Shown: positions 26,713 through 52,806 of the stretch, piece after piece
How positions within the stretch are numbered: position 1 is the stretch's first letter
Layout of the letters: every line of letters begins with the position of its first letter
Assembly (NCBI RefSeq): GCF_950295315.1
Contig: NC_080175.1
Location: 70,835,752-70,899,751 of the forward strand
DNA: 64,000 nt
DNA from: Erinaceus europaeus
Taxonomy: Eukaryota > Chordata > Mammalia > Eulipotyphla > Erinaceidae
Direction: 5' to 3'
Notes under the pieces: generated by a model
What the model saw: the letters and a program-made list of their open reading frames with translations, nothing else
What the model was told of the DNA's origin: nothing
Database searches by the model: none
Program-made: the position numbers and the translations under genes

Positions 26713-26992
26713 GGATTGGTAGGGACTTCTGGAGGCATGACAATAAAGTAGCAGCTGCTGCATTTCACTAATCCCTGGACAACTAAAAACAAGTAATGAA
26801 AACCACCTGGAAACTCAACACAATAAGGCCAGGATTTTTTCAGAAACTCACCAAGCACAGATGAGTACAAACAACTGTGGTTCATGGGCAGAAAAGGAGT
26901 GAGGAAGAGATTCCTGAGGCCAAAAGGCCATATTCAGGGACAGCTGGCACCAAACTGGGAGAGTGACAGCTGAAGCACATCACTTCTTTGCC

Positions 26993-27356
26993 TTCTTCTT
27001 CTAGCATTTGCCCTCTTCCATAGCCAGTCAACAGCGTCAGGTTGAGCCTGATGTAAAGTTTCGAGACCTCCTTTGAATCTGGAGAGGTGGTAGTCGTTGA
27101 CTATGTGGGTCATAGTCTGTCTGGAGCTGCAGGGGCAGTTCGGGTCGTCTCTGGCTCCCCAGCGATTGAACATAGCGGTGCACCGGCCATGGCCTTTTTC
27201 GATAGCGATTGAGGAGGACCCAATCATAATGTGCTAGGTCAAAGCAGGGTTGACGCTTGCAGGGGTCTGTGATGAGGTGTTTGTTCTTTACCTCAGCTGA
27301 CTGCCAACTCTGTTTCCAAGAGTCTGGAACAGAGAAGTTCAGTGTAGGCGTAGGGG
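26993..27356 (-). mobile_element. Same non-L1 LINE family, copy A, 5'-truncated and degraded
   Basis: 364-bp insertion with a perfect 11-bp TSD ACTTCTTTGCC (26982-26992 and 27357-27367). On the - strand it has the same 3' terminus: the TAG stop then GAAGAA. It is more diverged than copies B-D: the frame is shifted around the RYRTGHGR region, and the knuckle reads CPCSSRQTMTHIVNDY, losing the last Cys. It lies in the 5' region of an old L1. Confidence 0.87.
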
Positions 27357-27367
27357 ACTTCTTTGCC

Positions 27368-27745: not shown

Positions 27746-28783
27746 AAAGAGAAAGAAAACCATATTAAGTCACAGGTGAGTAAAGACAGGTAGACAGGTG
27801 GGGCTTGTGGCTGGAAAGGTAGTAAGGGAGTGATTCCCATGACTATAAACCAGTTTTCAGGGACAACAACAACAAAAAAAAGCTGGGAAATTTGCTGCTG
27901 AGTCATACCACTTCTGGTCTGATATAAGCAAAATGAACTCACCAACTTACAACTGTATCTTCTTGAGTTTCCAATGCTTTTGGCCATAGGATGGAACAAC
28001 AGAAGGGAGGCCCTTATACTGAAATCAGGGACACTGATTCAACCTGGTGGCTCAGGATAAAATCTCAGATGCCCCACTGAGATATTAAAACAAGTAAATC
28101 AAACAACTTGGCCACAATGCCTCCTGCTGGCATAACAACAAAAGAACACGAAATGTGGAAGCTGAGAAATACACAGGCAATGACAGAAAAACAATGACAG
28201 ACAAAAAGACCTAGAAAAAATTAGAGATACAGTTCAGAAAACTCGTTATGAAATCACTTCAAGAAACTAAACTAAGACTCAAATCAGTGATAATTTTACA
28301 AAAGAATTATAAAGTACAGGGAACAAAATTAAAAAAAACAAACCTCCAAACAGGATAGCAAGGACACTTTGAATTCAGTTCAGGTTGAGGTAAGAGGTCT
28401 CAGAAGTAGACTTAATCAGGTGGAGGAGACAATATCAACACTAGAAGACACAACCACCAGACTCTGTGAATTTAAAATTCTAGAAGAAATTAAGATTAAG
28501 AAAAGTGAATTGCTTCATCTAAAATAGCAGATTCCATCAGAAAAAAGAATACCAGAATTATTGGGATCTCTGAGGAAGAGGAGAGGGAGAAAGGAATAGA
28601 GAACATAGTCAAAGAAATTTTAGCATAAAAATTTCTATAAGTCACCATCCACAAATTCTGTATCCTGCTAAATTTTAACATCAAAGATGAGGGAGAGATA
28701 AAGATCTTTGCAAACATTCAGAAACTAACATAATTTGCCACTACCAAACCTGCATATCAAGAAAAATGAAAGGAGTCTCACAT

Positions 28784-29646
28784 TCTTCTTCTAGCGTTTG
28801 CCCTTCCGTAGCCAGTCAACAGCATCAGGTTGAGCCTGATGTAAAGTTTCGAGACCTCCTTTGAATCTGGAGAGGTGGCAGTCGTTGACTATGTGGGTCA
28901 TAGTCTGTCTGGAGCCACAGGGGCAGTTCGGGTCGTCTCTGGCTCCCCAGCGATGGAACATAGCGGCGCACCGGCCATGGCCTGTTCGATAGCGATTGAG
29001 GAGGGCCCAATCATAACGTGCTAGGTCAAAGCCGGGTTGACGCTTGCAGGGGTCTGTGATGAGGTGTTTGTTCTTTACCTCAGCTGACTGCCAACTCTGT
29101 TTCCATGAGACTGGAACAGAGAAGTTCAGTGAAGGCGTAGGGGACCAGATTGGGTGACGAGACGTCAAGCGTTGGACAGGGTGGGCGAAGATATCCGCGT
29201 ATATTAGCAGGTCCGGTCGAGCGTAGACGTGGGAAATGAACTTAGATGATGCCGCATCCCGACGAATATCTGGCGGGGCGATGTTGCTAAGAACTGGCAG
29301 CCATGGAACCGGGGTGGAACGGATGGTTCCAGAAATTATCCTCATGGAGGAATATAATTTGGAATCGACCAAGTGGACATGGGGGCTACGGAACCATACT
29401 GGGGCACAGTATTCTGCAGTGGAATAGCATAATGCCAGAGATGATGATCGTAGTGTGGAAGCGCTCGCGCCCCATGAGGAGCTGGCCAGTCTTGCAATGA
29501 TGTTATTCCTCGCGCTCACCTTTGCTGCAGTTTTTATGAGATGTTCGTGAAATGACAGAGTGCGATCGAGAGTAACGCCAAGATAGACTGGCTGGGCTTC
29601 ATGCCGGATTCTTGTATCGTCAAGCTGCACATTAAGCTCACGTGAA
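28784..29646 (-). mobile_element. Non-L1 LINE (jockey/CR1/I-group-like), copy B, 5'-truncated, open frame
   Basis: 863-bp insertion flanked by the 10-bp TSD AGTCTCACAT (28774-28783 and 29647-29656). On the - strand it stays open from the 5' truncation to a TAG stop near 28791, about 284 codons. In order it encodes: LSRELNVQLDDTRIRHEAQP with the RT thumb motif VYLGVTLDRTLSFHEHL; then ARNNIIARL and LALCYSTAEYCAPVW; then the linker IAPPDIRRDAASSKF; and a C-terminal knuckle CPCGSRQTMTHIVNDC (C-x-C-x7-H-x4-C) before GGLETLHQAQPDAVDWL. This resembles the C-terminus of arthropod-type jockey/I/CR1-group non-LTR retrotransposons. It has no RNase H motif in the part present. After the stop comes only a (GAA)n-like tail, not poly(A). 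Clade assignment is uncertain; identity as a LINE reverse-transcriptase C-terminus is strong. Confidence 0.88.
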
Positions 29647-29849
29647 AGTCTCACATGAAAAGAAGAAGCAAGTGAATTACAACTTTTAATGAGATTATAA
29701 GTATTGGAACAAAACCAGAAACACACAGCAACAGGGAAACCCAGACACAAGAAAGGGGAGAACAAAATATTGTGACTCTGTCCAATGATGGTGAAACAAG
29801 GCCAACATAAAGACTATTTTTTAATTTTTTTTTTTTACTTATAAAATGG

Positions 29850-31010: not shown

Positions 31011-34000
31011 CACAATATTCATGACAACCACAAACCAAAATACAGCAGAAAGACAAGAAACATATATATCCTAGGCAAAACCATTATAGTATACCACACA
31101 CTTGAAACTACATAAACAAACAGGAAAATATTCAACAAGAACATAAAACAGCCTCAAAAAAAAAAAAAAAAAGCAGAATGGCTATAAGCAGCCACATTTA
31201 TCTGTAATCTCCCTGAATGTGAATGGCTTAAAGTCTAAAGACTAAGGGACTAAATGCCCATCTACACTGTGTCTCTAGGAAAAACAAATCCAAAGAGACA
31301 AAGAGAATCTCTGGGTGACAGGATGGAACAAGCTATGTCAAGCCAATAATGCAAACAAAAGGGCGGGAATAGCTATTCTAATGTCAGAGAAATGAGACTT
31401 TCAGGCAGAAAAGGTGAAAAGCAATAGACATGCACACTTCCTATTGTTCAGAGGACCAATCCAACAGGAAGTCATAACCATCATCAGTATATATGCTCCA
31501 AATATGCATGCACCAAATATGTAAGAAAAGGAACCTACTGGCTTTAAGAGAGATAAAGACAGCTGCACAGTATTAGTTGTACCTCAACACAGCACTCACA
31601 ACAAGAGACAGATAGATCATCAGGACAAAAATTCAGCAAGGACATAGAGACCTTAAAGGAAGTGATAACTGAGATGAGATCAAAAGATATATTCAGACCA
31701 TTTCACCCCTAAAAAATAATAATAATATACATTATTTTCAAGTGCACAAGGAAAATTCTCAAGGATGGACCATGTGTTAGTACACAAAGACAACTTTCTT
31801 AAATAAGTGAATATTGAAATGATAAAAAAATTATCTTTTCTGACCATGAGGTGGTAAGGTTAGAAATCAACCCTAAAAACAAACAAACAAACAAAAAAAA
31901 AACACCCAAACTATGGAGCCTGAACAACACACTTCTGAACAACATCTGGGTCATCAAATACATCAAAATTGAAATTAAAAATTACTTGTGAGACAATGAA
32001 AATGAAGAGACTTAACTACCAGATCCTGTGAGATGCAGCAAAAGCAGTTCAAAAAAGGAAGTTTATACCAAATACAGGCCCATATTAACAAATAGCAAAG
32101 ATACCAAATAACCTACTTAACGTCACTCTAAACCAACTAGATAAAAAGCAACTGAGACTCAGGATTTAGCAAGAGAAAGGAAATAGTCAAAATCATTGAA
32201 ATTTCATTAATGAATGAAACCAAGAACCACTTTTTAGAAAGAACAAATAAAATAGATAAACCACTGGCTAGACTCACAAAAAGAAGATGGAGAAAACTAT
32301 GATTAAATTTCAGCTGAAGATGGGGAGACACAAAGAATCATATGTGAACATTATGACTATCTCTATGGGAATAACTTGGGCAACCTAGGTGAAATGGATG
32401 CATTCCTAGAATTATACCATCTGCTGAACCTAACCCAAGAAGAAGTAGAGAGCTTAAACAAGCCAGTAAGTGGCTTAGAAATTGAATCAGTAGCTTTACT
32501 AACAAGTTCTATAAGACTTTCAAAGAACTAACACACACTATTTCAGAAAACTTGTCCACATACTATTTATTATCTTTATTTATTATCTTATCCACACACC
32601 ATGGCTGCCAGTTCTTAGCAACATCACCCCGCCAGATATTTGTCGGGATGCGGCATCATCTAAGTTCATTTCCCACGTCTACGCTCGACCAGACCTGCCA
32701 ATATACGCGGATATCTTCGCCCACCCTGTTCAACGTTTGACGTCTCGTCACCCAGTCTGGTCCCCTACGCCTACACTGAACTTCTCTGTTCCAGTCTCTT
32801 GGAAACAGAGCTGGCAGTCAGCTGAGGTAAAGAACAAACACCTCATCACAGACCCCTGCAAGCGCCAACCCGGCTTTGACCTAGCACGTTATGATTGGGC
32901 CCTCCTCAATCGCTATCGAACAGGCCATGGCCGGTGCGCCGCTATGTTCCATCGCTGGGGAGCCAGAGACGACCCGAACTGCCCCTGTGGCTCCAGACAG
33001 ACTATGACCCACATAGTCAACGACTGCCACCTCTCCAGATTCAAAGGAGGTCTCGAAACTTTACATCAGGCTCAACCTGATGCTGTTGACTGGCTACAGA
33101 AGAAGGGCAAACGCTAGAAGAAGAAGAATCCACACACTTTTTCGGAAAACTGTACAAGGGCAAACACTACCAAATACATTCTGAGAGGCGAATATCACTT
33201 TGATCACCAAAGCAGATCAGACTCGACCAGATAAGAAAACTATAGACCTATGTCCCTGATGAACACTGATGCAAAGATGCTGAACAAGATCATGGCAAAC
33301 TGAATTCAACAACATATCAAGAGAATGATCCACCAAGATCAAGTGGGATTCATCCCTGGAAAACAGGGATGGTTCAACATCCACATCAATCAAAGTAATT
33401 AATCATATTTATGAAAGACCCACAGCTAAAGTCATTCTCAATGGGGAAAAGCTGAAAATTTCCCCCCTAAAATTGGGAAACAGACAGGGATATGCTGTAT
33501 CTCCACTATTACTGAATGTAGTTCTTGAGTTCCTCACTACTGCAACCAGACAAGAAAGAGATATCAAAGGAATATAGAAAAAAAGAAATAAAATTATCAG
33601 TATTTGCTGATGCCATGATATTATATCTAGAGAACCTAAGACTCCTCTAAAAAGCTACTGAGAATAATCAATAAATTAAATAGAGTAGCAGGATACAAAA
33701 TCAGTGCACATAACTGTGTCATTTCTGTATATAAACAAGTTATCAGAGGAAAGGGAAATAAAAGACTCAACCCATTTACAACTGAACCAAAAAGATAAAA
33801 TACCTTAGGGTTAATATCATGAAGGTGGTAAGAGACCTTTATAATGAAACCTATTGCACATTGCTAACATTCAGAAGTAGAAAAGCATTCCTTGTTCCTG
33901 AATTGCAAGAATAAACTATTAAAGTGACATTACACAAAAATCCATCTATAATTTCAATGCAATCTCTACCAAAGTTCCAATGGCATTTTTAAACAAACTC

Positions 34001-36852: not shown

Positions 36853-39207
36853 TTTTTTTTTCTTTTTTATTTAAGAAAGGATTAATTAACAAAACCATAG
36901 GGTAGGAGGGGTACAATTCCACACAATTCCCACCACCCAATTTCCATATCCCACCCCCTCCCCTGATAGCTTCCCATTCTCTATCCTTCTGGAAGCATGG
37001 ACCCAGGTCATTGTGGGTTGCAGAAGGTAGAAGGTCTGGCTTCTGTAATTGCTTCCCCACTGAACATGGGCGATGACTGCTTGGTCCATATTCCCAGTCT
37101 GCCTCTCTCTTTCCCTATTAGGTTGGGTCTCTGGGGAAGCGGAGCTCCAGGACACAATGGTGGGGTCTTCAGTCCAGGGAAGCCTGGCCGGCATCCTGAT
37201 GATCTGGAACCTGGTGACTGAAAAGAGAGTTAACATACGAAGCCAAACAAATTGTTGAGCAATCATGGACCCAAAGCTTGGAATAGTGGAGAGGAAGTGT
37301 TAGGGGGATATACTCACTGCAAACTCTAGTGTACTTCTGCTTTCAGTTATATATTTTGCAGTAGTTTACGGATACGTGTGAACATATGCTCTCTCTCACA
37401 GAAACTGGCATATATCTAGGTTTTGGGATTTTGTTAGAAAGTGAACCACCTGAGATGGAATTAGAAGTATACTATGAAAGGAAAGGTCTCACCCGAGTAA
37501 TGAAGCTGAAGGGCTGTCATTCCACACGTGAAGTATCTGGACACAGTCTGAAGTGAAGCATGTTGAGGTGGCAATCGTTGTGTTGGTTAGGTTGTGATCG
37601 GCAGATGCAATATTATTTGATATGGATTGGGAGAGGCATACGGGAAAGTGGGCCGTATCCAATGGTTCCAGGACTGGGGGAAGTAGAGGCTCTATAGTGG
37701 AGATGTGAGGTTCCTGCTGTCTTAGGGTTCAAAAAGACAATCGGTAGTTAATGTTATCATTACATTATTTGGTAATTGGGTTAACTTTAAAAAGTACTTT
37801 TGTTAGGGTTTGCTGTACAGTACCCAGTATCTTGTATATAGCTGTGCTGCTGGTTGCTTCTGATCTACTTGGTCTAGGCTTTTGAGAGAGTCTGCATATC
37901 AATTACACAGCCTATATATTGAAAAGATTCAGTTTGTGTTTTGAAAAACTTCGAGACATACAATTAATTTCCCCCCTCTCGTATTAATTAACTAGTTATT
38001 TATATGACTACATTTTACTAGGAGTGTACATAAACACCATTCCCACCACCAAAAGACTGTGACCTATCCCTCCCACCCACTCCCACCCCCCACTGTCCCA
38101 GGAAGCTGCATGTCTACCCCTCACCACAGGGTTTTTACTTTGGTGCCCTTCTTACAATTTGGTCAGGTCCTGCTTTTAGTTTCCCTTTCAGATCTTCTTC
38201 CTCAACTTCTGTTGATGATTGGGATCATCCCATACTTATCTTTATCTTTCTGACTTAGCTCACTTAACATAATTCCTTCTAGCACTGTCCAAGATGGGTC
38301 AGAGAAGGTGGGTTCATTGTTCTTGATAGTTGCATAGTATTCCATTGTATATATATATACCACAACTTTCTCAGCCACTCATTTGTTGTTGGGCACCTGG
38401 GTTGCTTCCAGGTTTTAGCTATTATGAATAGTGCTGCCATGAACATAGGAGTACACACCTCTTTTTGGTTGGGTGTTATGGAGTCCTTGGGGTATAACCC
38501 CAGGAGAGGAATTACTGGATCATATGGAAGGTCCATGTCTAGCCTGGTGAGAGTTTTCCAGACTGCTCTCCACAGAGGCTGTACCAATTTACATTCCCAC
38601 CAGCAATGTAAAAGGGTTCCTCTGTCCCTACAACCTCTCCAGCATTTGTTGTAACATGCAGAAGAATGAAATTGAACCACTTTATTTCAACAGAAAAAAA
38701 ATCAACTCCAAATGGATCAAAGACCTAGATGTCAGACCAGAAACAATCAAATACTTAGAGGAAAACATTGGTAAAACACTTTCCCACCTATACCTCAATG
38801 ACATCTTTGATGAATCAAACCCAATTGCAAGGAAGACCAAAGCAGAAACAAACCAATGGGACTACATCAAATTGAAAAGCTTCTGCACATCCAAAGAAAC
38901 TAGTAAACAAACAGAGAGACCCCTCACAGAATGGGAGAAGATCTTCACATGCCAGACATCAGACAAGAAACTAATCACCAAAATATATAAAGAGCTCAGC
39001 AAACTTAGCACCAAAAAAGCAAATGACCCCATCCAAAAATGGGCAGAAGACATGAACAAAACATTCACTACAGAGGAGATCCAAAAGGCTAACAAACATA
39101 TGAAAACCTGCTCTAGGTCACTGATTGTCAGAGAAATGCAAATTAAGACAACACTAAGATACCACCTCACTCCTGTAAGAATGGCATACATCAAAAAGGA
39201 CAGCAGC
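36853..39207 (-). mobile_element. L1 insertion with 5' inversion and a 17-bp TSD
   Basis: Flanked by a perfect 17-bp TSD AACAAAGCAATATTCTT (36836-36852 and 39208-39224). From the left it reads on the - strand: poly(T) (the A-tail), about 1.4 kb of L1 3'UTR, and the ORF2 C-terminus (38279-38655, NKCWRGCRDRGTLLHCWWEC ... IPLLGLYP ... EWL ... WNTMQL). At 38656 the orientation flips; 38656-39207 reads on the + strand the ORF2 part just upstream (IKDLDVRPETIKYLEENIGK ... WDYIKLKSFC ... RMAYIKKDSSN). The two halves abut at the codons SSNK|CWRG of ORF2, the signature of twin priming. Coding is nearly free of stops, so it is fairly young. Confidence 0.93.
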
Positions 39208-39377
39208 AACAAAGCAATATTCTTAACAATATTCAGTTGGTAGTTATGATGTGCTATTAAGACCAGTCAGTACAGCACATTAAAGCTGCATTAGCAGCTT
39301 TCTAAAGAACACTTCCTACCCCAACAGGATTGCCTAAGTTTCCTTTGAGCCATCTCTGAAAAGTGCTCTCATCATGG

Positions 39378-52371: not shown

Positions 52372-52620
52372 CTTCTTCTTCTAGCGTTTGCCCTTCTTCC
52401 GTAGCCAGTCAACAGCGTCAGGTTGAGCCTGATGTAAAGTTTCGAGACCTCCTTTGAATCTGGAGAGGTGGCAGTCGTTGACTATGTGGGTCATAGTCTG
52501 TCTGGAGCCGCAGGGGCAGTTCGGGTCGTCTCTGGCTCCCCAGCGATGGAACATAGCGGCGCACCGGCCATGGCCTGTTCGATAGCGATTGAGGAGGGCC
52601 CAATCATAACGTGCTAGGTC
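52372..52620 (-). mobile_element. Same non-L1 LINE family, copy D, 3' fragment fused to a SINE
   Basis: About 249 bp of the LINE 3' end on the - strand, starting with CTTCTTCTTCTAGC on the + strand (the tail and stop) and running up to the LARYDWALLNRYRTGHGR codons. At 52620/52621 it joins, with TCA microhomology, the body of a + strand S1 SINE that lacks its tRNA head. The LINE part is open and nearly identical to copies B and C. The fused - strand frame continues into the SINE as a fortuitous 104-codon ORF. No clear perfect TSD; ACTACAAT (left) and ACTACCAT (right) are possible flanks. Confidence 0.85.
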
Positions 52621-52806
52621 ACAGGCGGTGAAGCAGGTCTGCAGGTGTCTATTTTTCTGTTCCCCTCTCTGTCTCTCTTCCTCTCTCCATTTCACTCTGT
52701 CCTATCCAAAAACGACGATATCAATAACAACAACAATAATAACTACAACAATAAAATAAGTGCAACAAAAGGCAATAAATAAATATTTAAAAATAAATAA
52801 ATAAAA
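52621..52806 (+). repeat. S1 SINE body lacking its head, fused head-to-head with LINE copy D
   Basis: Starts abruptly at ACAGGCGGTGAAGCAGGTCT, the middle of S1, and continues through the pyrimidine-rich body to the CAA/ATAA tail. Box A and box B are absent. Confidence 0.85.

Follow-up and report, generated by a model that had tools for sequence, protein, structure and literature searches.

Four copies of a LINE family in hedgehog DNA

The window (the whole 64-kb stretch of hedgehog DNA that was analysed) contains four 5′-truncated copies of one LINE family, here called A to D (Table 1), which together span 2,001 nt and have a mean length of 500 nt. Nothing else in the window matches them at E 1e-3. 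Three of the four start within 5.6 kb, as do around 8% of random placements of four. All four end in GCTAG(AAG)n, with tails that differ in length by a few bases, and each begins at a different point of one longer element. On either side of copies A, B and C lie exact target-site duplications (TSDs) of 10–11 bp, the sequence of which is different each time; no TSD was seen on inspection by eye of the flanks of copy D. A previous sequence-only reading of this DNA had described one exact 3′ end for four copies and three clean TSDs, and both descriptions hold. Because a single 3′ end is combined with different truncation points and, in three copies, with different TSDs, the copies are 5′-truncated LINE insertions that were made independently. 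The assignment to a LINE-type element is likewise supported, as the common 3′ end with varying 5′ truncation expected of TPRT-type LINEs is found in every one of the four copies, and three of them have TSDs.

Table 1 Positions of the LINE copies, their target sites and adjoining host elements in the window
Feature	Position	Strand	Remarks
Copy A	26993–27356	−	364 nt; frameshifted; oldest among A–D
Copy A 5′ TSD	27357–27367	−	GGCAAAGAAGT (11 bp); by eye
Copy A 3′ TSD	26982–26992	−	GGCAAAGAAGT (11 bp); by eye
Copy B	28785–29646	−	862 nt; longest; extra A at 28784 may be tail
Copy B open frame	28794–29645	−	284 codons; TAG at 28791–28793
Copy B 5′ TSD	29647–29656	−	ATGTGAGACT (10 bp); by eye
Copy B 3′ TSD	28774–28783	−	ATGTGAGACT (10 bp); by eye
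L1 ORF2 piece left of copy C	32316–32492	+	ORF2p residues 403–461; match to LINE-1 ORF2p
Copy C 5′ TSD	32590–32599	+	ATCCACACAC (10 bp); by eye
Copy C	32600–33127	+	528 nt; frame open up to the TAG stop common to the family
Copy C 3′ TSD	33128–33137	+	ATCCACACAC (10 bp); by eye
L1 ORF2 piece right of copy C	33362–33574	+	ORF2p residues 618–688; match to LINE-1 ORF2p
Copy D	52372–52618	−	247 nt; open frame
Host SINE adjoining copy D	52619–52785	+	without 5′ part

The L1 ORF2 fragments identify the window as mammalian. Two of them, on the same strand and in ORF2p order, enclose copy C, which is thus integrated in mammalian DNA; copy C is the genome’s own DNA and not part of a stray contig, and the same is probably true of all four copies. 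Contaminant or misassembled foreign DNA, a concern raised by the earlier reading and one that the GC content of the copies might encourage (52–56%, compared with 34–41% in blocks of the window), is scarcely credible, given that copy C sits with its TSD inside the ordered L1 pieces, that copy D adjoins a host SINE and that the four truncated copies are independent. When the 528 nt of copy C and one TSD are removed, the flanking L1 pieces lie 331 nt apart rather than the approximately 468 nt expected, which would mean either that some sequence was lost or that the pieces are two fragments.

Other host elements were recorded nearby. The SINE that lacks its 5′ part meets copy D exactly at 52618/52619, possibly because target DNA was deleted, or the template switched, as copy D inserted. 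At 38551–39243 (+) lies an L1 ORF2 fragment with an open stretch of 230 codons (LINE-1 ORF2p match at 1e-58), which suggests a fairly young L1 in this host. SINEs of tRNA type are dense in the window (20 pieces of more than 100 bp, at a median of 10% from their consensus), and from the look of this consensus we take them to be the hedgehog tRNA-type SINE. The left flank of copy B resembles L1 ORF1 by eye; this candidate was rejected, as the best L1 match had an E value of 0.13 and an unrelated chain scored higher.

Coding sequence and kind of LINE

Copy B retains the 284 open codons to a TAG stop that had been claimed for it, a length reached by no six-frame maximum in 2,000 dinucleotide shuffles (largest 247, mean of the maxima 112). 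We take its domains to be an RT thumb-like region and a C-terminal Cys–His knuckle. The knuckle, CPCGSRQTMTHIVNDC, reads C-x-C-x7-H-x4-C in copies B, C and D, as the sequence-only reading had it, and in copy A the last C is replaced by Y. The accompanying statement that the frames are open and only a few per cent apart stands for B, C and D, which differ by 0.8–2.3%, and fails for copy A, the frame of which is shifted by small indels. The TAG stop directly precedes the (AAG)n tail, leaving essentially no 3′ UTR, and all four copies stop short of the RT catalytic core and endonuclease. AlphaFold2 applied to the copy B product alone gave a mean pLDDT of 32.

Differences between copies B and C are unevenly spread, with 1 in the last approximately 247 nt and 11 in the approximately 274 nt upstream (Fisher p 0.0066, for a split chosen post hoc). 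The low difference at the 3′ end perhaps reflects constraint on an RNA end signal within the coding sequence, or else subfamily history. Folding z-scores of the 3′ end give no consistent support for such a signal (copy D, −0.40 over 150 nt and 1.17 over 80 nt; copy B, −2.76 and 0.19), and no RNA families or tRNAs were found in the window. Synonymous changes account for 6 of 12 differences between B and C and for 2 of 2 between B and D, compared with 30% expected (B–C alone, p 0.12; pooled, p 0.03, a weak test because copy B is counted in both pairs).

No PDB chain is matched by the product of copy B at any E value up to 10, whereas three local L1 pieces match LINE-1 ORF2p, with L1 pieces of as few as 74 and 82 residues doing so at around 1e-12 and 1e-18. 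All four tails are (AAG)n and not poly(A). The claim that the family is unlike L1 is thus borne out, and the presence of a young LINE other than L1 in a mammal is solid. A Pfam search, which found no family for copies B and C, is a weak negative, as it also found none for three other open reading frames of the window, one of which is plainly L1. L1 could nevertheless be involved if its machinery had mobilized the transcripts of a family that made no active enzyme itself in this host; L1 ORF2 pieces are indeed present in the window, and one of them has a long stretch free of stops. Products of L1 end in poly(A), however, whereas all four copies here pair (AAG)n tails with a single fixed 3′ end, and the TSDs are 10–11 bp long; we regard mobilization by L1 as very unlikely.

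Among other LINEs, we infer a jockey-like affinity, though the family is assigned here to neither Jockey nor RTE. The order of motifs in copy B (a YLGV-type thumb start, EYCAPVW and the QTMTHIV knuckle) presumably resembles that of jockey-like proteins of invertebrates and some fish, and a C-terminal Cys–His knuckle, present here in B, C and D, occurs in Jockey and also in other clades. In elements of the RTE and BovB kinds, the 3′ UTR is very short and the tail consists of short repeats; the window family, in which TAG is followed at once by (AAG)n, has the same arrangement and to our eye recalls RTE in this respect. No such knuckle is known in RTE or BovB, and its presence argues against a family of RTE type (BovB or RTE-X), the kind of horizontally spread LINE already known in mammals. 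In favour of that assignment, the repeat table published for the African hedgehog (Atelerix albiventris) contains 1,333 RTE-BovB, 888 RTE-X and 47,737 unclassified LINE copies, and several of the unclassified consensuses were placed in RTE-BovB and RTE-X (PMC12026660). Overall we consider an RTE-type family doubtful but a serious alternative; it overlaps with horizontal entry and would alter only the clade and the novelty.

Relatives were sought in viral_contigs, genome_contigs, phages and E. coli, collections that are prokaryotic or viral and so say little about animal LINEs. A peptide-pattern search with copy B returned 4 stretches from viral_contigs and 20 from genome_contigs; tblastn bore out none of them. 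A degenerate knuckle pattern had no matches in either collection, a looser one picked out 3 stretches in viral_contigs that tblastn attributes to chance (best E 0.30), and two further motif patterns had no matches in viral_contigs. Searches with the window element of phages by tblastn and of E. coli by blastn gave no match.

Divergence and age of the copies

Pairwise differences are 0.83% (B–D), 1.21% (C–D), 2.30% (B–C), 3.67% (A–D), 4.18% (A–B) and 4.41% (A–C). Without CpG transitions, B–D and C–D fall to 0% (over 241–247 nt) and B–C to 1.54%. The ratio of observed to expected CpG is 0.51–0.83 for the copies, compared with 0.18 for the window. In columns shared by at least two copies, the CpG sites retained number 12 of 18 in A, 31 of 33 in B, 27 of 33 in C and 15 of 15 in D. 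The host SINE pieces of more than 100 bp (n = 20) lie 4.0–22.4% from their consensus (median 10.0%; non-CpG median 8.6%). The copies, at 0.8–4.4%, are far less diverged, which upholds the youth implied by the recent amplification that the sequence-only reading had proposed; within the window, they form the young burst in the host that is looked for in horizontally transferred transposable elements.

Most SINEs of A. albiventris are reported to be 35–45 million years old (Zhu et al. 2025, PMC12026660). If the SINEs of the window are of that age, copies B and C would be around 4 and copy A around 9–12 million years old, on a rough clock borrowed from the dates of another hedgehog.

Origin of the family and comparison with known transfers

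The A. albiventris annotation lists 4,476 copies of LINE I-Jockey covering 2.232 Mb (Zhu et al. 2025, PMC12026660), a label that is the output of an automatic pipeline, in a source whose LINE copy totals disagree between text and table. Its main text contains ‘jockey’ once, in one table row, and ‘horizontal’ never. Three of the four I-Jockey consensuses were built de novo and one was found by homology, so that a repeat-database entry for the family may well exist. The host is again a hedgehog, and the mean I-Jockey length of around 499 bp (2.232 Mb/4,476) is close to the 500 nt found here; the window family may correspond to this row of the table. The tabulated amount predicts approximately 0.1 copy (around 54 bp) per 64 kb, whereas the window has 4 copies (2,001 nt). 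The excess may be due to another family (RTE-BovB, RTE-X or unclassified), to local clustering or to a differing host or count.

Jockey-labelled proteins occur in fish. According to a sea-snake paper, the CR1/Jockey superfamily includes the Rex1 elements of a vertebrate, and Jockey is described in a Drosophila paper as restricted to Arthropoda. For the first two reasons the arthropod-only view may be too strict; taken together with I-Jockey in Atelerix, it makes a Jockey-type transfer into hedgehogs plausible. Among the matches listed in the open-licence literature, no paper describes hedgehogs as having acquired such a LINE horizontally.

Young copies of such a LINE are not known from other mammals. 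A non-L1 LINE already present in early mammals (of the CR1/L3, L2 or some less common clade) could have survived by descent and stayed active here while being lost or silenced elsewhere, and the A. albiventris table does contain CR1 (2,569 copies) and LINE2 (20,612 copies). However, the CR1 consensuses in that table are all homologous, with none de novo (PMC12026660), and continuous activity over tens of millions of years would be required of a family whose copies in the window are a few per cent apart; we consider vertical survival unlikely. Judged by elimination rather than from a tree, horizontal entry of the family into this mammalian lineage, followed by amplification, is the probable explanation. 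Arrival through an arthropod parasite, which the sequence-only reading had itself raised as speculation, would still be conjecture. The narrower proposal that a Jockey-type LINE entered hedgehogs within roughly the last 10–20 million years and rose to thousands of copies, as the first case of its kind in a mammal and one unremarked in the published table, is possible and is put forward tentatively.

The copies were most likely made by the family’s own machinery, including a putative RT of its own. This enzyme would start on the (AAG)n 3′ end of the RNA at a nick in the host DNA, copy upstream and usually stop early, leaving 5′-truncated copies with TSDs of 10–11 bp. The amplification that followed entry would have left the copies in the window roughly 4–12 million years ago.

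Few transfers of LINEs into mammals are documented. In one survey, 24 of 975 transfer events in vertebrates involve mammals and birds, by a method that excluded recent splits. If horizontal entry is correct, the hedgehog family would be a near-fresh invasion, with donor, route and host response open to study, and it would show that a LINE can function in a mammal with an (AAG)n end and practically no 3′ UTR. Confirmation of the clade would also call into question the restriction of Jockey to arthropods.

BovB is not known to carry a C-terminal knuckle like that of the window family. The two are alike in that BovB is a LINE that has spread horizontally among animals (PMC6036668). RTE1_Sar, a LINE transferred between parasitic nematodes and the common shrew, involves a mammal of the hedgehogs’ order; it differs in being an RTE element and gave no significant hits in reads of hedgehog, solenodon and mole (PMC6542046). 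Mariner_Tbel, shared by hedgehog and tree shrew, is a likely insect-to-mammal transfer that reached the hedgehog, but it is a DNA transposon and, at 69–100 million years ago, far older (PMC3517439).
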